Shown here piece after piece: positions 2,508 through 38,982 of a stretch of 40,435 nt of DNA. The translations under genes were made by a program, and so were the position numbers. Below the pieces are notes generated by a model, which saw nothing but the letters and a program-made list of their open reading frames with translations, was not told the origin of the DNA and ran no database searches. Positions within the stretch are counted from its first letter, which is position 1. The number at the start of each line of letters is the position of its first letter. The DNA is from Natronohydrobacter sp. (GTDB lineage: Bacteria > Pseudomonadota > Alphaproteobacteria > Rhodobacterales > Rhodobacteraceae), in the NCBI GenBank assembly GCA_020832585.1, contig JAFIEL010000010.1, forward strand, positions 1 to 40,435, written 5' to 3'.

Positions 2508-3581
2508 ATGATCCCGATGCCGACCAAGGACAGCCCGATCTGGCGCGATGACGAGGAACTGGAATGCGTGGCGATCCTGCCCGAAGCGCCGGGCGTCAAG
2601 ACTTTCGTGTTTCGCCCGCCCTCCGCGTCGATCTTCGTCTATCGCGCAGGCCAGTTCCTGACGCTTGATCTGCCTGTCCCCGGCGGCAATGTGCAGCGGA
2701 CCTTTACGATTTCATCGTCGCCCATCACCTCGGCCTATCTCAGCATCACCGCCAAGGTGCAGCCCGATTCAGTCGGGACGCGCTGGATACATGACCATCT
2801 GCAAGTGGGGATGCGCCTGCGCGCCTATGGCCCCGCCGGACTGTTCCACCTACCGCCACAACCCGAAGGCAAGTACCTGTTCATCTCGGCAGGGTCCGGC
2901 GTGACGCCGATGATGTCGATGGCCACCACGCTGTTCGAGCGCGGCGAAGACCCGGACATCTGTTTCATCCAATGCGCGCGCAAACCGAGTGACCTGATCT
3001 TCCGGCGCAGGCTGGAATACATGGCCTCGCGCGTGGCCGGGCTGGCGCTGCATTTCGTCGTCAGCCAACCCGAACCCTACGAGGTCTGGACCGGCTATCG
3101 TGGCCAGTTCAACCAGTTGATGCTGGGCCTGATGTGCAGCGACTATCTGGAACGCGATGTCTATTGCTGCGGGCCAGAGACTTTCATGACGGCGGTGCGC
3201 GAAATCCTGATCTCGCTGGGCTATGACATGGCGCGCTATCATCAGGAATCCTTTCACGCCCCGGCCGAAACCGTGGCCGAGATCAAGGAATTTGACGATC
3301 CAGTGCCCGATGACACGGCACTGGCCGAAATCGTCTTCGCGCGCTCGGGTATTTCTGTTACCTGCACCGAAGGCGACACGATCATGCAGATCGCCCGTGC
3401 ACAGGGACTGCCTGTCGCATCAGGCTGCAATTTCGGCCTGTGCGGCACCTGCAAGACCCGCAAGATCTCTGGTGATGTGCATATGGTCCATAATGGCGGG
3501 ATCAGTGACGAAGATATCGAAGCGGGGTATATCCTCGCCTGCTGCTCCAAACCGGTGGGCCGGATCGAGATCGATGCCTGA
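2508..3581 (+). CDS. NAD(P)H-dependent reductase with C-terminal [2Fe-2S] ferredoxin (GbcB-like)
   Basis: 357 residues with three modules: an FAD-binding barrel (RTFTISSSP at 64-72), an NAD(P)H-binding domain (SAGSGVTPMMS near 127-137, and CCGPETFM near 220-227), and a plant-type ferredoxin domain with C307, C312, C315 and C345 in the C-x4-C-x2-C-x29-C spacing. It passes electrons from NAD(P)H through flavin and iron-sulfur to the Rieske centre of the oxygenase encoded immediately upstream. Length and domain order fit GbcB/Stc-type reductases. Only 4 nt separate it from the oxygenase gene. It runs convergently into the pxpA-like gene, whose stop lies 6 nt away. Confidence 0.9.
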   Translation: MIPMPTKDSPIWRDDEELECVAILPEAPGVKTFVFRPPSASIFVYRAGQFLTLDLPVPGGNVQRTFTISSSPITSAYLSITAKVQPDSVGTRWIHDHLQVGMRLRAYGPAGLFHLPPQPEGKYLFISAGSGVTPMMSMATTLFERGEDPDICFIQCARKPSDLIFRRRLEYMASRVAGLALHFVVSQPEPYEVWTGYRGQFNQLMLGLMCSDYLERDVYCCGPETFMTAVREILISLGYDMARYHQESFHAPAETVAEIKEFDDPVPDDTALAEIVFARSGISVTCTEGDTIMQIARAQGLPVASGCNFGLCGTCKTRKISGDVHMVHNGGISDEDIEAGYILACCSKPVGRIEIDA

Positions 3582-10080: not shown

Positions 10081-11952
10081 TCACACCCCCTGACGCTGGC
10101 GGGCGCGGGTGGCCTCGATCTCGGCATGTTTCGCGCGGACATTAGCATTATCGGACACTTGCGGCGTGCCGACTTCCCACCAGGCATGGCCTTGCGTGGT
10201 CCAGCCCTCGTAAGGGTCCACATGCATGACAATGACCGTGGTCTTGTCGGACGCCTTGGCGCGGGTAAACGCCTCGCCCAGTTCCGCCGGGTTGGCGACG
10301 GTGACGGCATCGGCCCCCATCGCGCGGGCATGGGCTTCGAAATCGACCACGAAGGGCTCGGGCACTGTCGGGCAATCCGCGATCAGATTGTTGAAACTGT
10401 CTTGGCCCGTGTTGTTCTGCAGCTTGTTGATGACGGCAAAACCGCCATTGTCGAGCACAAGGATGATCAGCTTCTTCTGCGTCAGCACACTGGAATAGAT
10501 ATCCGAGTTCATCAGCAGATAGCTGCCATCGCCCACAAAAACGATGGTGTCGGCCTCTGGTTCGCTCTCGGCCTGCGCGATCCGCGCGCCCCAGCCGCCG
10601 GCGATTTCATAGCCCATGCAGGAAAAGCCGAATTCGACATCGACGGTGCCGATTTCCAGCGTGCGCCAGTTGGCGGTCACTTCGGCGGGCAAGCCGCCCG
10701 CAGCCGTCACCACCCGGTCGCGCGGATCGCAGAGTGCGTTCACCACGCCGATGGCCTGCGCGTAGCTGTTGGGGCGGTTTCCGTGGCTGACATTCTGCGC
10801 AACATAGCCATCCCATGCGCGGCGCTCGTCTTGCGCGCGGGCGGTCCAGTCGGTGGGAGTGCGATATTCGCCCAAGGCAGCGCCAAGCTGCGGAAAGGCC
10901 AGTTTCGCATCGCCCACCACGGGCAGGGACAGGTGTTTCATCGCGTCATGCCGCCCGACATTCAGCCCGATCAGTTGCGCATCCTTGGCGAAAGCGGTCC
11001 AGGACCCGGTGGTGAAATCCTGCAAGCGTGTGCCCACGGCAAGGATCACATCGGCGGCTTCCGCAATCGCATTGGCGCTATCCGATCCGGTCACGCCAAT
11101 CGGGCCTATGTTCAGCGGATGGCTGGCCAGCATGTTGGCGCGGCCTGCGATGGTTTCGACGACAGGGATGCCATGCGCTTCGGCGAAGGCGGTCAGTTCC
11201 GCGACCGCGCCGGAATACTGCACGCCGCCGCCCGCAATGATCATCGGGCGCTTGGCCCGTGCCAGCGCGCGCGCGGCATCGGCGATCTCGGCGCTATCTG
11301 GTGACTGGCGACGGATGCGGTGCACGCGGCGGGCGAAGAATTCCGACGGATAGTCATAAACCCAGCCCTGCACGTCCTGCGGCAACCCGATAAAGACCGG
11401 ACCGCAATCAGCGGGGTCGAGCATCGTGGCGAACGCGGCAGGCAGCGACTGGATCACCTGCGCGGGATGGGTGATGCGGTCCCAGAATCGGGTCACGGGT
11501 TTGAAGGCGTCGTTGACGCCGAGGGTCGGGTTTCCGAAATGTTCAAGCTGTTGCAGCACCGGGTCAGGCAGGCGGGTTAGAAATGTGTCGCCGCAGAGCA
11601 TCAGCATGGGCAACCGGTTGGCATGGGCCAAAGCCGCAGCAGTCAGCAGATTCGCTGTGCCCGGCCCGGCGCTGGCCGTGCAGAACATGAAGCGGCGGCG
11701 CAGATGGTATTTCGCATAGGCCGCCGCCGCAAAGCCCATGCTCTGTTCGTTCTGGCCGCGATAGAGCGGCATCTCGGCATGGTGGGGATAGAGAGCCTCG
11801 CCCAGACAGGGGACGTTGCCATGTCCGAAAATACCAAAGCCGCCACCGCAGATCCGGGTTTCCTTGCCGTCAATCTCGATGAACTGGTTCAACAGATACC
11901 GCGTGATGGCTTGGGCCGTTGTCAGCCGGATGGTGTCGCCCGTCTGTGTCAT
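10081..11952 (-). CDS. iolD: 3D-(3,5/4)-trihydroxycyclohexane-1,2-dione hydrolase
   Basis: 623-residue thiamine-diphosphate enzyme. The cofactor-binding motif runs from GDGSYLLMNSD to LDNGGFAVIN in the C-terminal third, and the N-terminal domain has the conserved glutamate in GQNEQSMGFAA. IolD hydrolytically opens the ring of trihydroxycyclohexane-dione to 5-deoxy-D-glucuronate, the step after IolE. ATG 11952 is chosen because GGAGGGAGAG precedes it directly; an upstream in-frame ATG lacks such a site. It is first gene of the leftward operon iolD-iolC-iolB-like-aldolase. Its promoter region is shared with the divergent dehydrogenase gene and contains the LacI-type palindrome. Confidence 0.94.
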   Translation of the reverse strand: MTQTGDTIRLTTAQAITRYLLNQFIEIDGKETRICGGGFGIFGHGNVPCLGEALYPHHAEMPLYRGQNEQSMGFAAAAYAKYHLRRRFMFCTASAGPGTANLLTAAALAHANRLPMLMLCGDTFLTRLPDPVLQQLEHFGNPTLGVNDAFKPVTRFWDRITHPAQVIQSLPAAFATMLDPADCGPVFIGLPQDVQGWVYDYPSEFFARRVHRIRRQSPDSAEIADAARALARAKRPMIIAGGGVQYSGAVAELTAFAEAHGIPVVETIAGRANMLASHPLNIGPIGVTGSDSANAIAEAADVILAVGTRLQDFTTGSWTAFAKDAQLIGLNVGRHDAMKHLSLPVVGDAKLAFPQLGAALGEYRTPTDWTARAQDERRAWDGYVAQNVSHGNRPNSYAQAIGVVNALCDPRDRVVTAAGGLPAEVTANWRTLEIGTVDVEFGFSCMGYEIAGGWGARIAQAESEPEADTIVFVGDGSYLLMNSDIYSSVLTQKKLIILVLDNGGFAVINKLQNNTGQDSFNNLIADCPTVPEPFVVDFEAHARAMGADAVTVANPAELGEAFTRAKASDKTTVIVMHVDPYEGWTTQGHAWWEVGTPQVSDNANVRAKHAEIEATRARQRQGV

Positions 11953-12000
11953 CTCTCCCTCCCTCGTTTCGCCTGACATCTGCAATCGATGAATTGCCAG

Positions 12001-20900: not shown

Positions 20901-20934
20901 TGCCTTGACCAAAGAAGCAGCACAAACGGGACAC

Positions 20935-21477
20935 ATGTCGAAACATTTCTCCACTCCGAAATCGCGCGAGGCGAGCCAGATCACCTTCCGCCGCCCGGTG
21001 AAGGCGGACGGGTCTGACGTCTGGAAGCTCGTAGCCGCCTGCCCGCCCCTCGATCAGAACTCGATGTACATGAATGTCGTGCAGTGCGATCACTTCGCCG
21101 ACACATGCATCATCGCGGAACGTCATGGACGGATCGTCGGATGGATTTCAGGGCATGTTCCGCCAGAGAATCCGCAGACCCTGTTTGTGTGGCAAGTCGC
21201 GGTGCATGCCGATGCGCGCGGCCTGGGGTTGGGCAAGCGCATGTTGAAACGGCTTCTTGACCGCCCGTCCTGCCGCACCCTGCGCAGGCTGGAAACGACG
21301 ATCACGCGCAGCAATGACGCGTCCTGGGGTCTGTTCCGCAGCTTTGCACGCGACCTGGGCGGAACGCTTAGCGACGCTCCGCATTATGAACGTGACGCCC
21401 ATCTGGACGGGCAACACGCCACCGAACATCTGGTCACCATCAGCCTGCCGCGCAACGCAATGCGTATCGCGGCCTGA
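20935..21477 (+). CDS. ectA: L-2,4-diaminobutyrate N-acetyltransferase
   Basis: 180-residue GNAT acetyltransferase. The segment WKLVAACPPLDQNSMYMN is diagnostic for EctA, and the acetyl-CoA loop is seen in QVAVHADARGLGLGKRML. It acetylates L-2,4-diaminobutyrate at the gamma nitrogen, the second dedicated step to ectoine. ATG 20935 is used with the weak GGGA before it; a TTG at 20905 is in frame but would fall at the transcription start of the predicted promoter. First gene of ectA-ectB-ectC-ask, 28 nt before ectB. Confidence 0.95.
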   Translation: MSKHFSTPKSREASQITFRRPVKADGSDVWKLVAACPPLDQNSMYMNVVQCDHFADTCIIAERHGRIVGWISGHVPPENPQTLFVWQVAVHADARGLGLGKRMLKRLLDRPSCRTLRRLETTITRSNDASWGLFRSFARDLGGTLSDAPHYERDAHLDGQHATEHLVTISLPRNAMRIAA

Positions 21478-21505
21478 CAGAGCGACAATACGAAAGGTTT
21501 TCCCC

Positions 21506-22771
21506 ATGACTGATATTTACACACGCCGCGAATCGCAGGCGCGCAGCTACTGCCGCGCCTTCCCCGTCACCTTCACCAAGGCGGTGAATGCCACGATGAC
21601 GGATGATCAGGGTCGCGAATACATCGACTTCCTTGCTGGCTGTTCGTCTTTGAACTACGGGCACAATGATCCCGACATGAAAGCCGCGCTGATCGCGCAT
21701 CTGGACCTGGATGGCGTGACGCATGGTCTGGACATGCACACAAGCGCCAAGGAAGCCTTTCTTGAGGCGTTCGAGCGCCTGATCCTTGCCCCGCGCGGGA
21801 TGGATCACAAGGTCATGTTTACCGGACCCACCGGCACAAATGCCGTTGAAGCCGCGATGAAACTTGCGCGCAAGACGACTGGGCGTGACACGATCATCGC
21901 GTTTACCAACGGGTTTCACGGCATGACCATGGGTGCGCTGGCCGCGACCGGCAATGCCGGCAAACGCGCGGGTGCCGGAACCAGCCTGACCGGCGTGGTG
22001 CGCATGCCCTTTGAGGATGCGCTGCCCGGTGTGGACTCGCTGGCCATGATCCGTGCCATGCTTGAAAACCCGTCCAGCGGCATTGACGCCCCGGCGGCAT
22101 TCCTGATCGAGCCTGTGCAGGGTGAGGGCGGTTTGAACGCGGCCTCGAAGAAGTTTCTGCAAGGGATTGAGAAGCTGGCGCGCGAGCATGGCGCACTGGT
22201 GATCATGGATGACATTCAGGCGGGCATCGGGCGCACAGGGCCTTTCTTCAGCTTTGAGGAGATGGGTGTGACCCCGGATCTGATCCCGCTGGCAAAATCG
22301 CTGTCCGGCATGGGGCTGCCGATGGCCGCGCTGCTGATCCGCCCGGATCTGGATATCTGGAAACCGGCTGAGCACAATGGCACGTTCCGCGGCAACAATC
22401 ATGCCTTTGTGACCGCGCGCGTCGCACTTGGAAAATTCTGGTCAGACGACCGCTTTCAGCGTCAGACCGGGGAGAAGGCCAGTTTCCTGACCCAGCGCCT
22501 GCGCGATATTGCCGCGCTGGTGCCCGGTGCAAGCCTGAAGGGTCGTGGAATGATGCAGGGCATCGATCTTGGTTCCGGCGACATGGCCGCCAGTGTCTGC
22601 GCGACCTGTTTTGACAACGGTCTGATCATCGAAACCTCGGGCGCGCATGATGAAGTGATCAAGGTGCTGGCCCCGCTGACAATCCCGCAGGCGCAACTCG
22701 CGCGCGGTCTGGACATTGTCGAGGCCGCCGTGAAGGCTGAGACCCGGACACAGAAAATCGCAGCGGAGTAA
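21506..22771 (+). CDS. ectB: L-2,4-diaminobutyrate transaminase
   Basis: 421-residue class III aminotransferase. Landmarks are the start [16 protein letters not shown], the PLP-phosphate segment [13 protein letters not shown] (105-117), acidic [13 protein letters not shown] (233-245) and the Schiff-base K264 in [10 protein letters not shown]. EctB transfers the amino group of glutamate to aspartate semialdehyde. The in-frame extension upstream runs through ectA and is rejected; the ATG at 21506 has GAAAGG 8 nt upstream and matches the family start. 4 nt separate it from ectC. Confidence 0.96.
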
Positions 22772-22775
22772 CCAG

Positions 22776-23162
22776 ATGATCATTCGTGACTTTCACAAGG
22801 CCAAGTCAACTGACCGGCGTGTGGCCGACCAGCAATGGGAATCGGTGCGCATGTTGCTGGCCGATGACGGGATGGGGTTTTCCTTTCACATCACGACCAT
22901 TGCGGCTGGAAGTGAGCACACCTTCCACTACAAGAACCATTTCGAGAGCGTCTATTGCATCTCGGGCGAGGGCGCGATTGAGGATCTGGCCACCGGCGAG
23001 GTGCATGAGATCCGCCCCGGTGTGATGTATGCGCTGAACCTGCATGACAAGCACACGCTGCGCTGCACGACCGAATGTGTCTTCGCCTGCTGCTTCAATC
23101 CGCCTGTGACGGGCAAGGAAGTGCATCAGGCCGATGGCTCTTACGCGCTGGAACATTCCTGA
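22776..23162 (+). CDS. ectC: Ectoine synthase
   Basis: 128-residue cupin of normal EctC length. It starts [10 protein letters not shown], and the iron-binding residues match the positions known for EctC: E57, Y85 and H93. It closes N-gamma-acetyl-diaminobutyrate to ectoine by removing water. The product is a cytoplasmic compatible solute for salt stress. No ectD follows, so 5-hydroxyectoine is not made from this locus. A hairpin separates it from the aspartokinase gene. Confidence 0.96.
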
Positions 23163-23169
23163 ACAAAGG

Positions 23170-23197
23170 GCGGCAGGGGTGAAAAGCTACCTGCCGC
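23170..23197 (+). repeat. Intra-operon hairpin between ectC and ask
   Basis: GCGGCAGG (23170-23177) pairs with CCTGCCGC (23190-23197) around a 12-nt A-rich loop, ending 7 nt before the aspartokinase ATG. No T-run follows. It could protect the ectABC message or reduce aspartokinase translation, since no clear ribosome-binding site is left free between stem and start codon. Confidence 0.6.
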
Positions 23198-23204
23198 ATG
23201 ATCC

Positions 23205-24629
23205 ATGACCCATACAGTCGAGAAAATCGGCGGCACCTCGATGAGCCGCGCCCCTGAACTGGTGGAAACGCTTTTTCTGGGCGGTCGCAAAGCGGCGGAA
23301 CTCTACAACCGCATCTTCGTTGTCTCTGCCTTTGGCGGCATCACGAACATGCTGCTGGAGCACAAGAAAACCGGTTCGCCCGGTGTCTATGCCCGTTTTG
23401 CCGCTGATGACAGCGGCGCGGGCTGGCAAGACAGCCTGCGCGAGACGGCCACCCGGATGGGCGACATTCACGCGGAGATCCTGACCCATGCTGCAGACCG
23501 CGAGCGCGCGGATGCTTTCGTGCGCGACCGGATGGAAGGCGCGCGCGCCTGTCTGATGGATTTGCAGCGTCTGGGCAGCTATGGGCATTTCCGCATCGCG
23601 CAGCAGATGCACACGGTGCGCGAATTGCTCTCGGGCTTGGGCGAAGCTCATTCCGCCTTTGTGCTGACGCTTCTGTTGCAGCGCCACAAGCTCAATGCCC
23701 GGTTCATCGATCTGTCCGGCTGGCGCGACAGCGAGAACCCGGACTTGCACGCGCGTCTGGATCAGGCCATGGCTGGGGTCGATCTGAGCACGGAAATGCC
23801 CATCGTCACCGGCTATGCCCATTGCGCCGAGGGGCTGATGCGCGAGTATGACCGGGGGTATTCCGAAGTGGTCTTTGCCCATCTGGCGGCCCAGACCGGC
23901 GCGCGCGAGGCACTGATCCACAAGGAGTTTCACCTTTCGAGCGCCGACCCGAAGATCGTCGGCGTGGAAAACACCGTCAAGATCGGGCGCACCAGCTATG
24001 ATGTGGCGGACCAGCTCTCGAATCTGGGTATGGAAGCGATCCACCCCAATGCCGCGCGGGTCCTGCGCCGGGCCGATGTGCCCTTGCGCGTGACCAACGC
24101 CTTCGAGCCACATGATCCCGGCACGCTCATCGGACCGAAAGGCGGCGAACCTGGCCGTGTCGAGATGGTCACCGGGCTGGAAGTGCAGGCGTTCGAGCTG
24201 CATGAACCGGACATGGTGGGTTTGAAAGGCTATGATGCCTGCGCGCTGGAAGCCCTGACCCGGCACAAGCTCTGGATCGTGTCCAAGCATTCCAACGCCA
24301 ATACGATCACACATTATCTGAGCGGCTCGCTCAAGGCGATCAAGCGGGCCGAGGCGGATGTGCTAAAGACCTATCCCAACGCAACGGTTACAGCGCGCAG
24401 TCTGGCGCTGGTCTCGGCCATCGGGTCGGATCTTGGCGAGATTCAAGTGCTGTTGCGCGGGCTGCAGGCGTTGCAAGATGCCGGGATTGAGGTGCAGGCC
24501 GCGCAGCAGGGGCTACGGCGGGTCGAGGTGCAGTTTCTGGTGCCCAGAGAAGATCTGAATGCCGCCATCAAGGCACTGCATGGCGCTTTCATCCGCCCCG
24601 CTGACACAATCACCCGCGCAGCCGCCTGA
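23205..24629 (+). CDS. ask: Aspartate kinase of the ectoine operon (Ask_Ect)
   Basis: 474 residues. The amino-acid kinase domain begins VEKIGGTSMSR, with FVVSAFGGITNMLLEHK close behind and the ATP-site region PIVTGYAHCAEG near 200; C-terminal regulatory (ACT-like) segments include VGLKGYDACALEAL and VSAIGSDLGEIQVLL. KIGGTSM instead of the general KFGGTSV marks the ectoine-specific branch, thought to escape feedback inhibition by lysine and threonine. It supplies aspartyl phosphate towards aspartate semialdehyde for EctB. Last gene of the ect operon; convergent with hutC. Confidence 0.95.
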   Translation: MTHTVEKIGGTSMSRAPELVETLFLGGRKAAELYNRIFVVSAFGGITNMLLEHKKTGSPGVYARFAADDSGAGWQDSLRETATRMGDIHAEILTHAADRERADAFVRDRMEGARACLMDLQRLGSYGHFRIAQQMHTVRELLSGLGEAHSAFVLTLLLQRHKLNARFIDLSGWRDSENPDLHARLDQAMAGVDLSTEMPIVTGYAHCAEGLMREYDRGYSEVVFAHLAAQTGAREALIHKEFHLSSADPKIVGVENTVKIGRTSYDVADQLSNLGMEAIHPNAARVLRRADVPLRVTNAFEPHDPGTLIGPKGGEPGRVEMVTGLEVQAFELHEPDMVGLKGYDACALEALTRHKLWIVSKHSNANTITHYLSGSLKAIKRAEADVLKTYPNATVTARSLALVSAIGSDLGEIQVLLRGLQALQDAGIEVQAAQQGLRRVEVQFLVPREDLNAAIKALHGAFIRPADTITRAAA

Positions 24630-25748: not shown

Positions 25749-26936
25749 ATGCTTCTGACAAATGCGACCATCGCCACTGTGACCGAAACAGGGGGTTACG
25801 GCCTGATCCCTGATGGCATTGTCGCCATTCAGAGTGAAACCATCGTCTGGACCGGACCGGCCAAGTCACTGCCAACGCTCTATCACGCCGAAGACGCGCT
25901 TGATCTGGAGGGTCGGCTGATCACGCCAGGGCTGGTAGACTGCCACACCCATATCGTCCATGGCGGCAACCGCGCGCGCGAATTCGAGATGCGCCTGCAG
26001 GGGGCGAGCTACGAGGAAATCGCGCGCGCTGGCGGGGGCATTGCCTCGACCGTCCTGCAAACGCGCGCGACCTCGGAAGACGCGCTGGTCGCCGCTGCCT
26101 TGCCGCGTGTCGATGCGTTGATTGCCGAAGGCGTGACCACGCTGGAAATAAAGTCGGGATACGGGCTGGAGTTGGATACGGAGTTGCGGATGCTGCGCGC
26201 GGCCCGGCGGATTTCCGAAATACGGCCAATTCGCGTGCAAACCAGCTTTCTGGGGGCCCATGCCACGCCGTCGGGGATGACGGCTGATGCCTATATCGAC
26301 AATATCTGCCTGCCTGCGCTCGATGCCGCATATGCAGAAGGGCTGATAGATGCCGTGGACGGATTTTGCGAAGGGATTGCCTTTTCGCCCACGCAAATGC
26401 GCCGCGTTTTCGATCGCGCGCGTCACTTTGGACTTCCGGTGAAGCTGCATGCAGAACAGCTCTCACACACGGGCGGCGCGCGCCTTGCAGCCGAATTCTG
26501 CGCCTTGTCGGCGGATCATCTGGAATATGCCGACGATGCAGATGCAGCGGCTATGGCGCAATCAGGGACCGTGGCCGTCATCCTGCCCGGTGCCTTCTAT
26601 ACGCTACGCGAAACACAGGTTCCGCCGATTGATGCCTTCCGCCGTCACAATGTGCCGATGGCGCTGGCAAGTGATTGCAACCCTGGATCATCGCCCATGA
26701 CGTCGCTTTTGCTGACGATGAATATGGGGGCGACCCTGTTTCGCATGACGCCCGAGGAATGTCTGTCAGGTGTCACCCGGAACGCGGCGCGCGCGCTTGG
26801 GCTGCGTGACCGTGGCACCATTGCTGCTGGCATGCGGGCCGATCTGGCGATCTGGAATGTCGAGCACCCGGCAGAGTTATCCTATCGCATCGGGTTCAAT
26901 CCGCTGTGGAAACGCGTTTACGGAGGAAAACTGTGA
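25749..26936 (+). CDS. hutI: Imidazolonepropionase
   Basis: 395-residue amidohydrolase. Metal-binding HTH at 66-68 in the motif [16 protein letters not shown], then [12 protein letters not shown] and [11 protein letters not shown] further on, all characteristic of HutI. It hydrolyses 4-imidazolone-5-propionate to N-formimidoyl-L-glutamate, the third step of histidine breakdown. AAGG lies 8 nt before the ATG. Its stop overlaps the GTG start of hutH by 4 nt. Confidence 0.96.
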
Positions 26937-28468
26937 GCATTGTCCTGACCCCCGGCACCGCGACCCTTGCGCAACTGGAGGAGATCTGGCGTAGCGGAAC
27001 AGATGCTCGCCTGACTGACGCGGCACGCCCCGCAATTGACGCTGCCGCCGAATTGGTCGCGCAGGCTGCGGCAGGGGATGCGGCGGTCTATGGGGTAAAT
27101 ACCGGCTTTGGCAAACTCGCGTCAGTGCGTATCGCGCCACAGGACACCGCGCAGTTGCAGCGCAACCTGATCCTGTCTCATTGCTGCGGGGTGGGCGACG
27201 CGCTGGACATCCCGACAACGCGGCTGATGATCGTGCTCAAGTTGTTATCGGTCGGGCGCGGGGCTTCTGGCTTGCGCTGGGAAACCGTCGCGTTGCTGCA
27301 GGACTTTCTGACACACGGCATCACGCCCGTTATTCCCGCGCAAGGCTCTGTCGGAGCATCGGGCGATCTGGCACCGCTGGCCCATATGGCTGCCACGCTG
27401 ATCGGCGCTGGTGATGCCTATTTCAACGGCGAGCGCATGCCATCGGACGCGGCGCTGGCGCGCGCGGGCCTGACGCCCGTGACGCTTGGCCCCAAGGAAG
27501 GACTGGCCCTGATCAACGGCACCCAGTTTTCCACGGCCTGTGCATTGGCGGGATATTTCGAGGCGATGCGCAACGCGCAAAGTGCGGTGGCCATTTCCTG
27601 CCTGTCAACCGATGCGATCATGGGATCAACCGCACCGCTGGAACCCGAGATTCACACGTTGCGAGGGCACAAGGGACAGATCGACGTGGCGCGTGCCATG
27701 CGCCAGATCATGGCCGACTCCGTGATCCGCGAAAGCCATCGCGACAGCGACGCCCGCGTGCAGGACCCCTATTGCATCCGCTGTCAGCCACAGGTGACGG
27801 GCGCAGCACTGGAGTTGTTGCGCTTTGCGGGCCGCACGCTTGAAGTTGAAGCCAACGCTGTTTCAGACAATCCGCTGGTTCTGGTCGACGCGGGAAAGAT
27901 CGTCTCTGGCGGGAATTTCCATGCCGAACCCGTGGCCTTTGCCGCGGACCAGATCGCCTTGGCCATCGCCGAGATCGGCGCAATTGCGCAGCGCCGTATT
28001 GCGCTTATGGTGGACCCGACACTCAGCCACGATCTGCCGCCCTTTCTGACGCCGGAACCGGGGCTGAATTCTGGCCTGATGATTGCCGAAGTGACCTCTG
28101 CTGCAGTGATGAGCGAGAACAAGCATCTGGCAAACCCCTGTTCCACAGACTCCACCCCCACTTCGGCCAATCAGGAAGATCATGTATCCATGGCCGCGCA
28201 TGGTGCCCGGCGGCTGGCACGGATGAATGCCAACCTGAGCGTCATTCTCGGGGTCGAACTGCTTTGTGCCGCGCAGGGTGTAGAGTTTCGCGCGCCACTG
28301 GCAACATCTCCCGTCTTGCAGCGGCTCTTGCGGATCACCCGCGACCGCGTGGCACCCTTGGGCGCAGATCGCTATATGGCCGATGATCTGAGCATTGCCG
28401 CCGACCTGATCCGCAACGGCGATGTGACACAGGTCTGCGATGTTGGACAGTTGCTTAACGGCCCATAG
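26933..28468 (+). CDS. hutH: Histidine ammonia-lyase
   Basis: 511 residues. The self-forming MIO cofactor comes from A142-S143-G144 in [16 protein letters not shown], and the catalytic loop YGVNTGFG is at 53-60. It removes ammonia from L-histidine to give urocanate, the first pathway step. The start is GTG 26933 inside the hutI stop region, with GGAGGA about 6 nt upstream; the longer frame to 26906 is unlikely. 54 nt separate it from hutU. Confidence 0.95.
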
Positions 28469-28522
28469 CCCTGGCCCAGACATGACGCCATCAACACACG
28501 CACCAATTCCAGGAGGCCATAG

Positions 28523-30196
28523 ATGACCAACCCACGCCACAACCTGCGCGACATCTACCCGCCCACCGGTTCTGACATCACCGCCAAAAGCTGGCTGACC
28601 GAAGCCGCGATGCGGATGCTGATGAACAACCTGCACCCCGATGTGGCCGAGAACCCGCATGAGCTGGTGGTCTATGGCGGCATTGGCCGCGCGGCCCGCA
28701 CTTGGGAGGATTTCGATCGGATCGTTGCCGGTCTGAAAGACCTTGAAGCCGATGAAACGCTTATCGTGCAGTCAGGCAAGCCTGTTGCCATCATCCGCAC
28801 CCACGCAGACGCCCCGCGCGTGCTCATCGCCAACTCGAACCTTGTGCCGCATTGGGCCACATGGGCGCATTTCAATGAGCTCGATCGCCGTGGCCTGATG
28901 ATGTATGGCCAGATGACCGCAGGCTCGTGGATCTACATTGGCACGCAGGGCATCGTTCAGGGCACCTACGAGACCTTTGCCGAAGCCGGACGCCAACACT
29001 ATGCCGGATCACTCAAGGGGCGCTGGATTCTGACGGCTGGCCTTGGTGGCATGGGCGGCGCACAGCCCTTGGCGGCGGTGATGGCGGGCGCGTGCTGTCT
29101 TGCGGTGGAATGTGATGAAACCCGCGCCGATTTCCGGATCCGCACCCGCTATTGCGACGCCAAGACGCATGATCTTGATGAAGCGCTGGAAATGATCACC
29201 GGCTGGACCAAAGCCGGAGAAGCCAAATCCGTGGCCCTGATCGGCAATGCTGCCGAGGTGTTCCCCGAGATTTACCGGCGCGGCATCCGCCCCGATATCG
29301 TCACTGACCAGACCAGCGCACATGATCCGGTGCATGGCTATCTGCCGGTAGGCTGGAGCGTGGCCGCGTGGCGCGAACAGCAGGAAAGCGATCCCGAAGC
29401 TGTCGAAAAGGCGGCGCGCGCGTCCATGAAAACCCATGTCGCCGCGATGGTCGATTTCTGGAATGCGGGCGTGCCGACACTGGATTATGGCAACAATATC
29501 AGGCAAGTGGCCCTTGAAGAGGGTCTGGAAAATGCCTTTGCATTTCCGGGTTTTGTGCCTGCCTATATCCGACCGCTGTTTTGCAAGGGCATCGGGCCGT
29601 TTCGCTGGGTTGCCTTGTCGGGCGACCCTGAGGATATTTACAAGACCGATCAGGCGATGCGTGAGCTGTTCCCCGACAATGATCACCTGCATCGCTGGCT
29701 GGACATGGCGCGCGAGCGTATTGCGTTTCAGGGTCTGCCTGCCCGGATCTGCTGGCTGGGACTGGGCGATCGTCACCGTGCCGGGTTGAAACTCAACGAA
29801 ATGGTAGCCTCGGGTGAATTGAAAGCGCCGATCGTGATTGGCCGCGACCATCTCGACAGCGGTTCGGTCGCAAGCCCCAACCGAGAGACCGAAGCCATGC
29901 TGGACGGGTCGGACGCGGTGTCGGACTGGCCACTTCTGAATGCGCTGATGAACACTGCCTCGGGCGCAACATGGGTCAGTCTGCATCATGGCGGCGGGGT
30001 CGGCATGGGATTCTCGCAACATTCGGGCGTCGTCATCGTCGCCGATGGCACAGCCGAGGCCGCACGGCGGTTAGAGCGTGTGTTGTGGAATGATCCTGCT
30101 TCGGGTGTATGGCGCCATGCCGATGCGGGCTACGCGGATGCGCTGCAATGCGCAAGGGATCACGGGCTGCGACTGCCGGGGATACTGGGGAACTGA
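28523..30196 (+). CDS. hutU: Urocanate hydratase
   Basis: 557 residues, the usual length. It has the typical N-terminus [20 protein letters not shown] (split by family into residues 3-22), [14 protein letters not shown] near 51-64, the NAD-binding region [10 protein letters not shown] near 172-181, and [17 protein letters not shown] near 487-503. It hydrates urocanate to imidazolonepropionate with tightly bound NAD as electrophile. CAGGAGG precedes the ATG. Last gene of hutIHU. hutG is not in the window, so the final step is encoded elsewhere. Confidence 0.96.
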
Positions 30197-34092: not shown

Positions 34093-34584
34093 TCACGGTT
34101 TCGACCTGCTGGCATCCAGCTTCAGCAGATGATCAAGCGACACGCGCCCCGGACCATGTGCCACGACCACCAGCAGCGCTGCCGCCCAAAGACCATGCGT
34201 CACCCAGGCATCTGGAAAGACGAAGATCTGGATAACCGCGGTCATGATCAGCAGCCCGAACGCCGAGACGCGCGCGAACAGTCCAAGGATCAGCAGAACC
34301 GGCAGGACATGCTCTGCGACTGTGGCAAGGACTGCGGCGGGCGCGGATGGTATGAGCGGCAGGGCATAAACATGCTCGAACAGAAAATAGGTCGAGTCCT
34401 TGATTGAGAACCCATCGACCTTGGTGCGGGCGGATTGCCAGAAGATCATCGCCGGGAAGACCCGCGCCACCAGAGCAACCACATCTTGCGGCATGTAGTT
34501 TGCCATGCTGTTCAGACGGCGGACCAGTTCGCGCCCACGCGAAACACTGCCTTGGGCGGGGGATGTATCGGTTGAATGGGTCAT
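34093..34584 (-). CDS. DoxX-family membrane protein of the bufferin-type operon
   Basis: 163 residues with four hydrophobic segments. [18 protein letters not shown] near 43-60 and [17 protein letters not shown] near 92-108 are typical of DoxX. Proteins of this kind often end DUF692/DUF2063/DUF2282 operons (BufD position). Function in the system is not settled; a redox or quinone-linked membrane role is a guess. Its ATG overlaps the DUF2063 gene by 4 nt. Last gene of the leftward operon, convergent with the lactate permease gene. Confidence 0.87.
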
Positions 34585-35330
34585 GCGACCGCTCCTCTAT
34601 CCGTGTCAATGATCAGTCCGTGGCGCAGCAACAAGGTCAGCGCCGGGGTCGGGTCGGCCTTGGTGGCGGCATGGCCAAGGGTTGCGCCGTCGCGCAGTTC
34701 TGCGAGCACGGCCAATGTGTCGGGCATGATGCGTTCCACAATCACCGTGAAATCCGGCTGGCGCGCGATCAGCGCATGATCCGGGCCCCGCGCGAATGGC
34801 CTGCGCGTGCTGCCCGGCTGATGGGACTGCCAGATTTGCACCGCTGGCATCTGCGAGGTGAAGAGCGCAACAGATGGATGCAGAACCAGCCGCAAGGCAC
34901 CCGGATCGGGAACCGTCAGGGCCTCGGGTGCCACAGGGTCCGCATCCGCTGCATGACAGGCGCAGCCGCGCGCGTATTCCAGCCGCGCAACATCGGCCAG
35001 ATAAGGCAAGTGCGAAACCGGCGGGAAACCCGCCAGAAACGTGGCGAAACAATCGCCCCAACGCAGCAACACCGGGTCGCGGGGGGGCGCGTTTGCGATG
35101 AATACGCGCGCCATCGCGGTGAAGAACTCTGCGCCGACCAGCTGTTCAATGACGGGAAAACGCGCCGCAAGAGCGCGGGTCAGACTGTGCTGGACATTGT
35201 TGCGATAGACCTTGAACCGCTGCGCCACATCTGCGCGGTCCGGGGCAGTTACCCCCGCCGGAGGCTCTATTCCCCAGATAGCTTTGTGAAAGGCGCGTTC
35301 GGTTTCGGCATGGGACAGATCATGCAGCAT
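34581..35330 (-). CDS. DUF2063 protein (BufC-like), MNIO partner
   Basis: 249 residues. The N-terminal half has the DUF2063 pattern: [42 protein letters not shown] (37-65) and [25 protein letters not shown]. The family was first annotated as DNA-binding but is now regarded as a partner of DUF692 enzymes that presents the precursor peptide. The C-terminal half is less conserved. Start overlaps the end of the DUF692 gene by 11 nt, and the stop overlaps the doxX ATG, so the three are translated together. Confidence 0.88.
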
Positions 35331-36171
35331 GGGACTGGCCCGGCTTCACACTCTGCAGCAAGGCTTGCGCATGCGCGGCCTCTGCCAGCAGGACCGGATA
35401 GCCCGGCACATCCGTATCCCATTCGATCAGCGTTGGCACAGGGCCGATCTGGCCCAGAACTTCGGCATAAAGCGCCCAGACCGGATCCGCGACCGGTGCC
35501 CCGTGACTGTCGATCAGCAGAGGGCCAGAAGGCAGTTCTTCGGTGTCATGCCCGGCAAGGTGAATCTCGCCGACAGCCGCAAGCGGAAATGCCGCCAGAT
35601 AGGCGCGCGCGTCAAAACGATGATTGGTGGCCGAAACGAAGACATTGTTGATATCCAGCAGCAACCCGCAACCCGTGCGGCGGGTGATCTCTGTCAGGAA
35701 ATCTGTCTCTGACCATGTAGACTGCGTGAATGTGACATAGGTGGCCGGGTTTTCCAGCAGCATCCGGCAGCCAAGCCTGTCCTGCACCTGATCGATATGG
35801 GCGCAGATCGTGGTGAGTGTCTGTTGCGTATAGGGCAATGGCAGCAAATCATTCAGCCACGCAGCCCCATGGCTGGACCAGGCGAGATGCTCGGAAAAGC
35901 TTTCTGGTTGGTAGCGATCGATCAGCTTGCGCAACCGCGTCAGATGATCTGCATTCAGCTTGCCCGCGCCGCCAATGGACAGCCCGACGCCATGGATCGA
36001 CAAGGCGTGATCAGCGCGCAAGGCAGCAAGCATCGCATGCGGCGCGCCACCATCGCCCATGTAATTCTCGGCATGTATTTCGAAAAATCCGATAACACCC
36101 GGTTCGGCCATGATGTCGCGGAAATGCTCGGGCTTGAAGCCCAGTCCTGTCGTGCGGGGAAGCTGAGGCAT
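35320..36171 (-). CDS. DUF692/MNIO multinuclear iron enzyme (BufB-like)
   Basis: 283-residue TIM-barrel enzyme of the DUF692 family (MbnB and relatives). Likely iron ligands and neighbours are visible: [12 protein letters not shown] (31-42), [11 protein letters not shown] (58-68), SFSEHLAW (91-98), LLENPATYV (138-146), [15 protein letters not shown] (170-184), EIHLAGHD (202-209) and [11 protein letters not shown] (248-258). Known members oxidatively remodel cysteines in a small peptide, giving oxazolone/thioamide (methanobactin) or thiooxazole groups (bufferins). The substrate here should be the four-cysteine peptide encoded upstream. GGAGAG precedes the ATG. A hairpin separates it from the precursor gene. 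Confidence 0.92.
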
Positions 36172-36186
36172 GATACTCTCCGGGAA

Positions 36187-36229
36187 ATGACACGGGGCGA
36201 GGCCGAGGCCGCGCCCCGCCGTTTGTCAT
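36187..36229 (-). terminator. Strong hairpin between precursor and MNIO genes
   Basis: Core arms 36194-36204 and 36207-36217 pair with one mismatch (GGGGCG-a-GGCC against GGCC-g-CGCCCC), extended by outer arms ATGACA (36187-36192) and TGTCAT (36224-36229). On the minus strand it follows the precursor gene stop and is followed by only a short T stretch (TCATTTCCC). It would stabilise the precursor message or partly stop transcription, giving more peptide than enzyme. Confidence 0.72.
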
Positions 36230-36537
36230 GCTGGCGGCAGGTCGCGGGCCAGCTCTTCCAGCGATCCCATGCGGGCCGTTCCGTCGGCCATTGCGGGCAG
36301 TTCGATTTCGGCGCAAGTGCCCGCCGCAACCAGTGTCCAGGCGTTGCCCTGATAATCCACGGTCGAGGTGCCCGAGCAGGTCGTGCCGGGGCCCGCAGCG
36401 CAGTCATTCGCACCTGCCAGCGAGATGCCAAAGCATTTTTCCATGGTTGCGGATTGCGCATGAGCATATCCGCCAGCCAGTGTAAGTGCCGTTGCCAAGG
36501 AAGCCGCGAGCGGCAGGGCGAGGGTTCTCGTCGTCAT
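36226..36537 (-). CDS. Exported four-cysteine DUF2282 peptide (bufferin precursor, BufA-like)
   Basis: 103 residues. A signal peptide covers about 1-27 ([10 protein letters not shown], hydrophobic core, cleavage after AHA). The mature part has exactly four cysteines, C35, C46, C54 and C75, in the DUF2282 pattern MEKCFGI, NDCAAG, TTCSG and AGTC. In characterised bufferins the central cysteines are converted by the DUF692 enzyme and the product binds copper in the periplasm, protecting the cell. Here that is inferred from family and neighbours. AGGAG lies 10 nt before ATG 36537. It is first gene of the operon and divergent from the sigma-factor gene. Confidence 0.9.
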
Positions 36538-36724
36538 GAATTTGCTCTCCTGTTGATGGGCGCTTATGTGCAGTCCCGGAAAGCGTTACGCGACGACAAG
36601 TACAGGCATTACACAGGTCACGCGGACGTGATCCGGTGTTTCTGAAATAATCGTTTCAGGAAAACTTCTCGCCTTGCTATGTAACAACGCGCGTGCGCCC
36701 CCCGAACAGAGGACTCGACCGGAT
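36538..36724. promoter_or_regulatory. Divergent control region between bufferin operon and ECF sigma gene
   Basis: A GTAAC element, a common -35 core of ECF sigma factors, occurs once towards each side: on the minus strand at 36589-36585 (52 nt before the precursor ATG) and on the plus strand at 36681-36685 (before the sigma gene). This would fit joint activation by the locally encoded sigma factor. The matching -10 boxes are not clear (CATAAG and CCGAAC at suitable distance do not agree), so this stays tentative. Confidence 0.4.
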
Positions 36725-37267
36725 TTGGAAGACCTCGATGCTCTGGAGGATCTCATGCGCGCTGCCAATCGTGGAGACACGATGGCCTATCACCGCTTGC
36801 TGATGGCGATAACCCCTGTCCTTCGCAAGGTTGTGCGTGCGCGCGGTGCAGCTTTGGGCCCCGAGGGCTGCGAGGATGTCTTGCAAGACGTTCTGCTGGC
36901 GATCCACAGCAAGCGGCACACATGGCACGAGGACGCGCCGCTGCGCCCGTGGCTATACGCCATCGCACGCCACAAGGTCGTGGATGCGTTTCGGGCGCGC
37001 GGCCGGCGGGTCGAAGTGTCGATTGATGACTTTGCAGAGGGGCTTGCCGCGGCAGCGGGCTCTGATCCGGCAGAGGGGCGCGATATGGAGAAGGTGCTGA
37101 GCAAACTTGAACCTCGCGCAGCAGAGATTGTTCGCGCCTTCGGCCTGAACGGCGAGACGACCGCCGAAACTGCCGCGCGACTGGACATGTCCGAGGGCGC
37201 GGTCCGTGTCGCCTTGCACCGGGCGCTGAAATCCATCGCCCGATTGCGCGAAAGGATGATCGAATGA
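36725..37267 (+). CDS. ECF RNA polymerase sigma factor (SigF-like)
   Basis: About 180 residues. Region 2 is seen in LMRAANRGDTMAYHRLL, GCEDVLQDVLLAIHSKR and PLRPWLYAIARHKVVDAFRAR; region 4 in LEPRAAEIVRAFGLNGETTAETAARLDMSEGAVRVALHRALKSI (within the last 60 residues). This branch is normally paired with a DUF1109 anti-sigma factor, which is the next gene (ATGA overlap). The start is uncertain: TTG 36725 keeps the usual 8-10 residues before LMRAAN, while ATG 36755 has the better ribosome-binding site (GGAGG). Likely activates its own operon and the divergent bufferin operon under metal stress. Confidence 0.9.
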   Translation: MEDLDALEDLMRAANRGDTMAYHRLLMAITPVLRKVVRARGAALGPEGCEDVLQDVLLAIHSKRHTWHEDAPLRPWLYAIARHKVVDAFRARGRRVEVSIDDFAEGLAAAAGSDPAEGRDMEKVLSKLEPRAAEIVRAFGLNGETTAETAARLDMSEGAVRVALHRALKSIARLRERMIE

Positions 37268-37896
37268 AAACCGAAGATCTGATTTCGGCACTTGCCGCGG
37301 ATACAATGCCGCGCGCGCCTGTCGGCCAGCAGCTGGGCAGTGCCTTGCTGGTAGCCATCGGCGTATCATTGGCCGCTTTCGCAGTATTCTGGGGACCAAG
37401 GCCGGATATCTGGGCAGCGCTTGGCTCATTCGCAGTGTTGAAAACCCTCGTGCCCTTGGCGTTTGTGTTGCTGGCATTGGCGTTTGCACTCGCGATGGTT
37501 CATCCGGGGTTTCCACATAAACGACGTGGGACGGCGCTTGGCGCCTTGATCGCGCTGGCGGCACTGACATTCATGATCGCACTTGCGCGCGAAGGTCAGG
37601 TCGGACTGGTCAGCGCGCTTTCGACACCCAGCCTTGTCACCTGCCTGCTGTCCATCCCGGCCCTTGCGATGCCGCTTCTGGCCGCAGCGATCTGGGGGCT
37701 GTCATCCGGGGCCTCGACGCGCCCAAGGCTGACAGGTGCAACCGCCGGATTGGTGGCGGGCGGAGTCGCTGCAGCCATATACTCGCTCTATTGCGACAAG
37801 GATATGATGCTCTTCGTGCTGCCTGCCTACGCCACAGCGATCGGAACCGTGATGCTTGCAGGCGCCTTGCTTGGGCCACGGATTCTGAAATGGTAA
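37264..37896 (+). CDS. DUF1109 membrane anti-sigma factor (NrsF-like)
   Basis: 210 residues with a short polar N-terminus (MKTEDLISALAADTMPR, the sigma-binding part in this family) and six hydrophobic segments. Two cysteines only, C127 (SLVTCLLSIP) and C177 (SLYCDKDM), 50 residues apart at membrane edges; as I recall, the Caulobacter NrsF also depends on two cysteines with this spacing for sensing heavy metals. It should hold the sigma factor at the membrane until metal or thiol stress frees it. Overlaps the sigma gene by 4 nt. Confidence 0.9.
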   Translation: MKTEDLISALAADTMPRAPVGQQLGSALLVAIGVSLAAFAVFWGPRPDIWAALGSFAVLKTLVPLAFVLLALAFALAMVHPGFPHKRRGTALGALIALAALTFMIALAREGQVGLVSALSTPSLVTCLLSIPALAMPLLAAAIWGLSSGASTRPRLTGATAGLVAGGVAAAIYSLYCDKDMMLFVLPAYATAIGTVMLAGALLGPRILKW

Positions 37897-37946: not shown

Positions 37947-38483
37947 TTAGACATTGGCAGGTCGAAACGCCTGACAACACGCAGGGTCTGTTTCAATTCG
38001 ACCTGCCCCAATCAAGTCCAGACAATAAGGGACAGCTGCGAAAACAGCGCCCAGACAGGTCGCAATCGCAGCAGGCTTGCCCGGAAGGGTTATGAACAAT
38101 GTCTTCCCACGCACGCCTGCGCCCTGACGCGACAGGATCGCAGTCGGTACCTCACGCATCGAGGCACGGCGCATTTCCTCGCCGAAGCCGGGCAAATCGA
38201 AATCGATGATATCCGCCAATGCCTCTGGTGTGCGGTCGCGCGGGGCGGGGCCGGTTCCGCCGGTAATCAACACCAGATCAACGCCATCCTCCGCAAAGCT
38301 TAGCAATGTGCTGGCCACAACCTCGCGACCGTCCGGAACAATACGGCGCGATACCTCGATGGGCGAGGAGATCGTCCTTCTCACCCAAGCCTCGGCCGAG
38401 GGGCCGCCCTGATCCACATATTCTCCACGAGATGCGCGGTCTGACACGGTCAGGATGGCAATACGCACAGCGTCACGCAGCAT
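37947..38483 (-). CDS. Molybdopterin-binding protein MoaB/Mog family
   Basis: 178 residues. It starts VRIAILTVSDRASRGEYVDQGGP and contains LVLITGGTGPAPRDRTPEAL (about 70-89), the molybdopterin-binding signature, and ITLPGKPAAIATCLGAV. Mog adenylates molybdopterin before molybdenum insertion; MoaB proteins of the same fold also occur, so the exact role is open. Its start overlaps the end of the DUF2478 gene by 11 nt, making a two-gene operon that reads away from two FNR boxes and lies behind nitrate reductase genes, which need the cofactor. Confidence 0.9.
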   Translation of the reverse strand: MLRDAVRIAILTVSDRASRGEYVDQGGPSAEAWVRRTISSPIEVSRRIVPDGREVVASTLLSFAEDGVDLVLITGGTGPAPRDRTPEALADIIDFDLPGFGEEMRRASMREVPTAILSRQGAGVRGKTLFITLPGKPAAIATCLGAVFAAVPYCLDLIGAGRIETDPACCQAFRPANV

Positions 38484-38982
38484 TCTGTAACCCCGCCTGC
38501 AGACACCAACCGGTCACATGAACCACATCCGCAGGCAGCGCTTCGGCCATCCCACTGGCAAAACTCTCGAAAGCGCGCAGGTTCAGGCCATTCACACCCA
38601 CAAGCACCGGCAGCCCACGGCAAAGAGCCTCGCCAATAAGGGGCGCAAACCCTGCACCCTCGGCTTCTGTCTTGCCGAATTTATTGACAACCAGAAGTTC
38701 TGCATCCGACAAGGCGGCCTCGGTGGCGGCGACGGCTTGCACAAGAACGCCGATGTCAAGCGTGCACCCCCGCGCGAAAGCTCCACGATCCTCGCTGATG
38801 CGCAATACCTCACCTGTTGCCAGCAGCCGCAGATCCATATCGCATTTGCGCCGATCTGCGCGGGCTGTATTGGCCTGCACGGTTCCGCACAGCCGCAAGC
38901 GACCTTCCAGACCTGCCACCACTTGCGTCAGAAACCGATCACTCTCTCCGCGTCCGGGCGGGCTGATATATCCCAATCTCAT
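38473..38982 (-). CDS. DUF2478 protein, molybdenum-linked
   Basis: 169 residues beginning MRLGYISPPGRGESDRFL, with CDMDLRLLATGEVLRISEDRG (about 47-67), LDIGVLVQAVAATEAAL and LLVVNKFGKTEAEGAGFAPLI (about 96-116), which are DUF2478 landmarks. The family is related to NTPases of the THEP1 fold and is often found by molybdenum transport or cofactor genes. The N-terminal glycine loop has glutamate where a Walker A lysine would be, so nucleotide hydrolysis is doubtful. AAAGGA lies 10 nt before the ATG. Two FNR boxes are 66 and 151 nt upstream (centre to start). Confidence 0.82.
   Translation of the reverse strand: MRLGYISPPGRGESDRFLTQVVAGLEGRLRLCGTVQANTARADRRKCDMDLRLLATGEVLRISEDRGAFARGCTLDIGVLVQAVAATEAALSDAELLVVNKFGKTEAEGAGFAPLIGEALCRGLPVLVGVNGLNLRAFESFASGMAEALPADVVHVTGWCLQAGLQNAA

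Follow-up and report, generated by a model that had tools for sequence, protein, structure and literature searches.

A bufferin operon back to back with its probable SigF/NrsF switch in Natronohydrobacter, and a putative operator beside the bufA promoter

Background

Does a compact gene cluster in the genome of a soda-lake-type bacterium carry both the switch and the effectors of a complete metal response, or is its control shared with a factor encoded elsewhere? This question is raised by a locus in the window analysed here, a 40,435-nucleotide stretch of contig JAFIEL010000010.1 (GenBank assembly GCA_020832585.1; Natronohydrobacter sp., Rhodobacteraceae), in which a leftward operon for a bufferin precursor peptide, its maturase, a partner protein and a DoxX-family membrane protein (bufA, bufB, bufC, doxX) lies back to back with a rightward pair of genes for an extracytoplasmic function (ECF) sigma factor and its anti-sigma protein (sigF, nrsF). 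Bufferins are a recently recognised and widespread means of bacterial copper handling, and the work that we found on their regulation is from Caulobacter. An earlier note on this DNA, made from the sequence alone, had described the locus as a self-contained copper or heavy-metal sensing and sequestration module in a Rhodobacteraceae-like host, where it would be little studied. According to the analysis presented here, the locus is very probably a bufferin module of the Buf1 type that is controlled by sigma-F/NrsF, and the region between its two operons holds a conserved palindrome that we read as the putative operator of a second regulator.

Gene content and bufferin identity

All six genes lie at the places and on the strands given by the earlier note; each is over the respective Pfam cut-off (Table 1), and together they span 34093-37896 with no stop codon or frameshift seen in any of them. 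Neighbouring genes overlap by 4 bp (doxX/bufC and sigF/nrsF) or 11 bp (bufC/bufB), and bufA is separated from bufB by 54 bp. DUF2282, PF05114 and NrsF have a single match each in the host assembly (3.3 Mb, 86.6% complete). The divergence of the two operons is evident from the coordinates and recurs in relatives: among the 80 nearest of at least 580 confirmed relatives, a set of best matches and not a census, 43 loci have the same divergent layout, six are collinear with sigF downstream of doxX, one is odd and 30 are without the pair in the stretch. A chance grouping is excluded by the family scores together with this conserved synteny.

Table 1. Features of the module, with Pfam cut-offs in brackets
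Feature	Coordinates	Strand	Description	Evidence
bufA	36226-36537	-	bufferin-1 (DUF2282) precursor, 103 aa	PF10048 82.6 bits (22.4)
bufB	35320-36171	-	MNIO bufferin maturase, 283 aa	NF050167; PF05114; MbnB_TglH_ChrH 352.3 bits (25); 3bww match
bufC	34581-35330	-	DUF2063 partner protein, 249 aa	PF09836 80.2 bits (27.2)
doxX	34093-34584	-	DoxX-family membrane protein, 163 aa	PF07681 56.5 bits (23.6)
sigF	36725-37267 (mechanical open reading frame 36674-37267)	+	ECF16-type sigma factor	Sigma70_r2/r4 (Sigma70_r4_2 43.7 bits (25.7)); PRK12512
nrsF	37264-37896	+	anti-sigma NrsF/DUF1109, 210 aa	PF06532 130.7 bits (26.8)
sigF promoter, GTAAC-N17-CGAA	36681-36706	+	predicted ECF16 promoter	exact ECF16 consensus; position as in relatives
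bufA promoter, GTAAT-N17-CGTA	36587-36612	-	predicted ECF16 promoter	two mismatches to ECF16 consensus; in register with relatives
palindrome, TCACG-N4-CGTGA	36618-36631		putative operator	5 bp upstream of bufA -35
bufA-bufB intercistronic hairpin	36172-36225	-	G+C-rich	-31.9 kcal/mol, z -2.51 (folded stretch 36172-36240)

The bufferin identity proposed earlier is borne out by the DUF2282 match, by the MNIO protein, which scores 387.8 bits on the curated NCBIfam model NF050167 (MNIO_BufB, cut-off 310), and by the four precursor cysteines at positions 35, 46, 54 and 75, each of which is found in all 44 aligned rows including the window sequence. BufA has an N-terminal signal peptide with the junction AHA/QS (judged by eye). 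The operon thus unites what characterises Buf1 clusters, namely a four-cysteine DUF2282 precursor, a BufB-group MNIO enzyme, a DUF2063 partner and a DoxX protein. The MNIO protein stays below the cut-offs of the four other MNIO equivalogs listed. Membership in the EGKCG-repeat HvfABCX/oxazolin group is not indicated, as the precursor is of the DUF2282 type and all Hvf equivalog scores are below their cut-offs (for HvfB 235.7, cut-off 360). Solved structures related to BufB by sequence are 3bww (phmmer E 1e-36), a TglH-type set (8hci and others) and MbnB entries. Its closest named matches are in metagenome-assembled genomes of Roseinatronobacter (85%) and, next, Natronohydrobacter (81%), in agreement with the Rhodobacteraceae-type host suggested from the sequence.

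The closest described counterpart is the sigF-nrsF/Buf1 cluster of Caulobacter vibrioides/crescentus (CC3252-CC3257; CCNA_03273, 03362-03366), which consists of the same six families, also has the DUF2282 gene first in its operon and has similar SigF promoters before both operons. In contrast to the window assembly, in which one DUF2282 protein, one NrsF and no MsrP were recognised, the Caulobacter regulon includes a second buf operon and msrPQ. For Caulobacter Buf1 it was reported that thiooxazoles derived from cysteines chelate copper and that modification falls on the central cysteines (PMC12452194). The same survey of MNIO enzymes describes Buf1 clusters with the bufferin-MNIO-DUF2063-DoxX core and reports sigma and NrsF genes in them; its abstract, one results section and further passages contain no mention of a shared operator or of promoter co-variation. 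The gig/dax operon of Cupriavidus metallidurans, induced by gold, silver and copper, has been described as a corresponding cluster (PMC8224329), and the GIG system of Legionella pneumophila is counted here among the close systems; both are likened to the module by description. According to a preprint (PMC12668002), bufferins and the DUF2282 precursor group are counted among the captophorins, in which an MNIO enzyme and its partner make copper-associated 5-thiooxazole peptides (fontiphorin, oxazolin, gonophorin); the precursors of these three carry EGKCG repeats, whereas BufA is of the four-cysteine DUF2282 type. The module is a typical representative of a system already known and widely distributed, and the part of it that could be new is the operator, the literature search not having been aimed at the palindrome.

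The G+C-rich hairpin between bufA and bufB was compared with that of relatives. For the window and five of the seven relatives compared, z-scores lie between -2.1 and -3.0; the other two relatives give 0.25 and -0.92. A set of 13 relatives was folded without controls. It is possible that the hairpin is a partial terminator or an mRNA stabiliser, and it may set the ratio of precursor to enzyme.

The SigF/NrsF switch and its promoters

The sigma protein scores 215.4 on NCBIfam PRK12512 (cut-off 198), and the overlapping downstream gene encodes a DUF1109/NrsF protein with two conserved cysteines, the arrangement known from ECF16/NrsF pairs. Cys127 of NrsF is present in all 38 aligned rows and Cys177 in a fraction of 0.97 of them, and both are invariant in a separate alignment of 13 sequences. 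The 50 residues between them equal the spacing of C131 and C181 in Caulobacter NrsF, where SigF-dependent promoters and the role of the NrsF cysteines were demonstrated by mutation and where the regulon is more strongly expressed once serine replaces the two cysteines (PMC3511200). Because the sigF reading frame, as called mechanically, opens at 36674 and thus ahead of its predicted promoter, translation probably begins at the TTG at 36725 or the ATG at 36755.

The consensus of ECF16 promoters is (T/C)GTAAC-N17-CGAA, and their anti-sigma factors have two conserved cysteines (PMC8315932). The exact form GTAAC-N17-CGAA occurs four times in the whole assembly and the reversed control pattern 29 times, so that exact boxes are not enriched genome-wide. 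We judge the sigF box to be the only one of the four that stands directly before a gene: one is located inside a gene (contig C167), another is antisense inside the window gene at 2508-3581, and the fourth (contig C44) overlaps the start of a leftward open reading frame with no rightward gene close downstream. A SigF regulon beyond the module, sought by way of exact boxes, was rejected; weaker sites like that of bufA escape the exact pattern.

Among the 80 nearest loci, a box with at most one mismatch precedes bufA at 34 of 43 divergent loci (shuffle expectation 0.80) and at all six collinear loci (0.20), and it precedes sigF at 36 of the 43 (1.00); of the 30 loci whose stretch contains no sigF/nrsF pair, four have it before bufA (1.00). 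The expectations are from first-order Markov resamples, and the rows are related by descent. The odd locus (L089), with an isolated NrsF match upstream, was excluded from these classes, and among the four boxed pair-less loci L090 ends at a contig edge, and in L152 there is a weak sigma match roughly 2 kb away. ECF16 boxes are thus common beside sigF/nrsF and rare elsewhere.

A palindrome beside the bufA promoter

Alignment of the divergent region of the genus with that of near relatives brought out the palindrome TCACG-N4-CGTGA. Its conservation was measured in 65 promoters, which remained from 72 candidates after removal of seven near-duplicate or short ones and still include the doubtful L086 and L112. 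At -19 (±1) from the bufA -35 anchor the palindrome is exact in 15 of these promoters, present with at most one mismatch in 34 and with at most two in 43, whereas at twelve control offsets zero or one promoter reaches the one-mismatch level. Most of the information lies in TCAC and CGTGA, with values near zero in the final G of the left half-site (0.04), in the N4 spacer and in the flanks. The 20 promoters that lack the palindrome comprise 13 from Rhizobiales/Hyphomicrobiales families, six from Rhodobacterales or the window's family and one class-mate (L002); in one of the 20, L109, it stands ten bases upstream of the usual place. At locus L085 of Yoonia vestfoldensis DSM 16212, a cultured relative with the module, palindrome and bufA box are both exact.

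The palindrome also occurs where the stretch around bufA contains no sigF and nrsF. In a first sample of loci without the pair in the stretch it precedes bufA in 13 of 30 (expected 0.55), and in a second sample of loci without an adjacent pair in 14 of 20 (expected 0.3), the expectations again being from first-order Markov resamples. The two samples have at least one locus in common (L147 and L017 read alike), three of the 14 positive loci have a sigF box directly downstream of the palindrome, and the genomes of L018 and L020 have nrsF at a distance of about 4 kb. A further half-site resembling CGTGA is seen at about half of the sigF-less loci that have no box, and a TAGGGTTT-like -10 at some of them (both by eye).

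We lean slightly towards the interpretation that an undescribed DNA-binding protein acts at TCACG-N4-CGTGA and controls bufferin operons in Rhodobacterales and some other Alphaproteobacteria. It would be a co-regulator beside the -35 in sigma-F-type promoters and the sole driver of a housekeeping-type promoter in sigma-F-less operons, which are often linked to thrS and in which half-sites are often repeated, and sigma-F/NrsF would be an interchangeable addition to a common control of older origin. Alternatively, the palindrome might be a part of the promoter itself, such as an UP-type element, or a relic of the lineage; we regard this as possible but doubtful. Its position at about -45 would be that of an UP element, promoters lacking the palindrome are richer in A/T at its place (63%, compared with 44% in the others) and somewhat so elsewhere, and the rows share descent. 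However, the palindrome is symmetric: its half-sites are conserved, the N4 between them is free and the flanks of these rows show no conservation. It also persists before bufA at loci without a sigF box, often with extra half-sites. As a putative operator, the 14-bp palindrome offers a testable clue to a second regulator common to bufferin operons with or without sigma-F. The earlier description of the module as self-contained may be wrong: the operator-like palindrome, conserved in the control region that both operons share, implies a factor encoded elsewhere.

Exact palindromes number seven in the host genome (two for the reversed pattern) and 61 in 12 genomes (11 for the reversed pattern). 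Five of the 61 were counted as bufA sites; the remaining 56 divide into 26 inside open reading frames, as called by a crude procedure, and 30 outside, and one of the 26 (L211) is itself a bufA site. Inspection of the 56 sites in the 12 genomes revealed no metal regulon. Three places unrelated to metals recur in two genomes each (L171/L230, L172/L236 and L227/L234) and could point to a wider regulon. Among the neighbours recurring at four or more sigF-less buf loci, no cluster resembling a transcription factor was seen by eye. At one site (L237, G254:C12) the palindrome separates an msrP-like gene from a DUF302-like one (by eye).

Proposed mechanism and nature of the signal

Genes, residues, promoter boxes, synteny and the conservation of the putative operator are results of the present analysis; the metal signal, the peptide chemistry and the copper binding are carried over from Caulobacter and the bufferin literature. 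In the resulting scheme, inner-membrane NrsF would hold SigF until its periplasmic Cys127 and Cys177 are acted on by a metal, copper being the likeliest, or by a thiol-reactive agent. The sigma factor, once freed, would transcribe its own operon and bufABC-doxX from the back-to-back ECF16 promoters, probably with a second DNA-binding protein bound at the palindrome beside the bufA -35. The hairpin after bufA may tip the balance towards precursor. BufB together with BufC would turn the central BufA cysteines (46 and 54) into thiooxazoles, the outer pair (35 and 75) would form a disulphide, and the Sec-exported peptide would chelate copper in the periplasm.

Copper is put forward here as signal and ligand by homology only; the metal-sensing and sequestration logic of the earlier note holds, with copper as its probable object inherited from Caulobacter. 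There, copper induces a cluster with this gene content in each of two media and two cell types; the cluster belongs to the core copper response, and a sigF::Tn5 mutant is copper-sensitive (PMC8224329).

Several results speak against a sigma-F-controlled Buf1 module of this kind. BufC and DoxX remain below the cut-offs of the HvfC and HvfX equivalogs (50.1, cut-off 142; 49.6, cut-off 80), and NrsF does not reach that of the NCBIfam NrsF equivalog (64.8, cut-off 300). The bufA box deviates from the consensus in both elements (GTAAT and CGTA) and is unremarkable by sequence: the window contains 65 sites with up to two mismatches where 59 are expected, so that the support for this box comes from its position in relatives and not from its sequence. 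In a Caulobacter study of 2012, cells exposed to dichromate or cadmium were no less viable when sigF, CC2906 or CC3255 had been lost (PMC3511200). Finally, ECF16 relatives elsewhere respond to hypochlorous acid or reactive oxygen species (PMC8315932).

The last point leads to an alternative for the same module, namely that oxidative or reactive-chlorine stress at the NrsF thiols is the signal and that the peptide is thiol-protective or sacrificial, which we consider unlikely. The systems responding to these agents have the same box and the same cysteines; Caulobacter SigF is activated by chromate and cadmium, and a Caulobacter sigF mutant was reported to cope poorly with oxidative stress in stationary phase (PMC8224329). 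However, the described hypochlorous acid system, BcrS/AbcS, which shares the promoter consensus and the two anti-sigma cysteines of ECF16/DUF1109 pairs (PMC8315932), controls an operon of msr-type repair genes, whereas in the window a bufferin operon is the partner. The 86.6%-complete assembly yielded no MsrP gene, and its sole Oxidored_molyb match over the cut-off (L077) is SoxC-like beside SoxB (by eye). The Caulobacter evidence on copper given above also argues against this alternative, and sigma-F-dependent genes of Caulobacter are not induced by agents that generate reactive oxygen species. That the cluster is inactive or constitutive in its host, with the weak bufA box left unused, we regard as very unlikely, since the position of this box and its CGTA -10 recur in congeners and all six reading frames are intact.

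The Oxidored_molyb match at L077 had been tried as a candidate MsrP and was rejected on its own sequence and its SoxB-like neighbour (by eye). The stretch around it contains 11 boxes with up to two mismatches (expected 5.4; six of 200 shuffles reach 11) and no palindrome within one mismatch. The best of these boxes, at 2337-2362 (G000:C64), has a single mismatch; it runs over the stop codon with which the SoxB-like gene closes, lies about 9 bases before the soxC-like gene and is probably there by chance.

Distribution and genomic context

DUF2282 genes occur in 211 of the 295 family genomes that were sampled, and NrsF is over its cut-off in 41. Of 30 NrsF loci (2.2-3.6 kb, that of the window included), 21 have buf genes in the stretch, with bufA divergent in 19 of these. 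Among the papers listed by the literature search, none treats the module in Rhodobacteraceae by title or abstract, and the word DUF692 appears in three Rhodobacteraceae genome papers (PMC11278168, PMC11595833, PMC8273931). Because bufferin genes are so common in this family, being little studied there is the main respect in which the locus is notable.

Within the genus, DUF2282 occurs in three of 13 genomes and in one more from the family sample (G199); six of the genomes without it are at least 95% complete. In three congeners all six genes are together with different flanks, and ten other proteins of the window have no match in the 14-16 kb around the module of the congeners. Relatives at 65-72% identity are located on plasmids of Paracoccus and Gemmobacter, and two of three that were inspected have the sigma and DUF1109 genes collinear downstream. 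The patchy presence in the genus, the variable flanks and the plasmid-borne relatives suggest lateral transfer of the module, and switch and effectors are conserved as a unit in this soda-lake-type genus of the Rhodobacteraceae. On a Paracoccus plasmid (L160, 6759-7169) a thioredoxin-family gene lies between doxX and the collinear sigma gene.

A probable thrS gene (by eye) was found at 14 of 31 loci with sigF-less buf operons (for example L124, L131, L135, L139, L140 and L142). Judged by eye, the vicinity of thrS is a different and stable genomic home of these operons. At eight loci (L111, L113, L115, L120, L122, L125, L128 and L135) two bufA genes precede a single bufB.

Other genes in the window

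Outside the module, the window contains an ectoine operon at 20905-24629 (ectA, ectB, ectC and an aspartate kinase gene, over the NCBIfam cut-offs), which fits a salt-adapted host. Histidine-utilisation genes (hutI, hutH, hutU) at 25749-30196 and the inositol-catabolism gene iolD at 10081-11985 are also over their cut-offs; a glycine-betaine monooxygenase-like subunit encoded at 1268-2503 is below. A gene for a DUF2478 protein (38473-38982) overlaps a molybdopterin adenylyltransferase-like gene and has a match in 12 of the 13 genomes of the genus.

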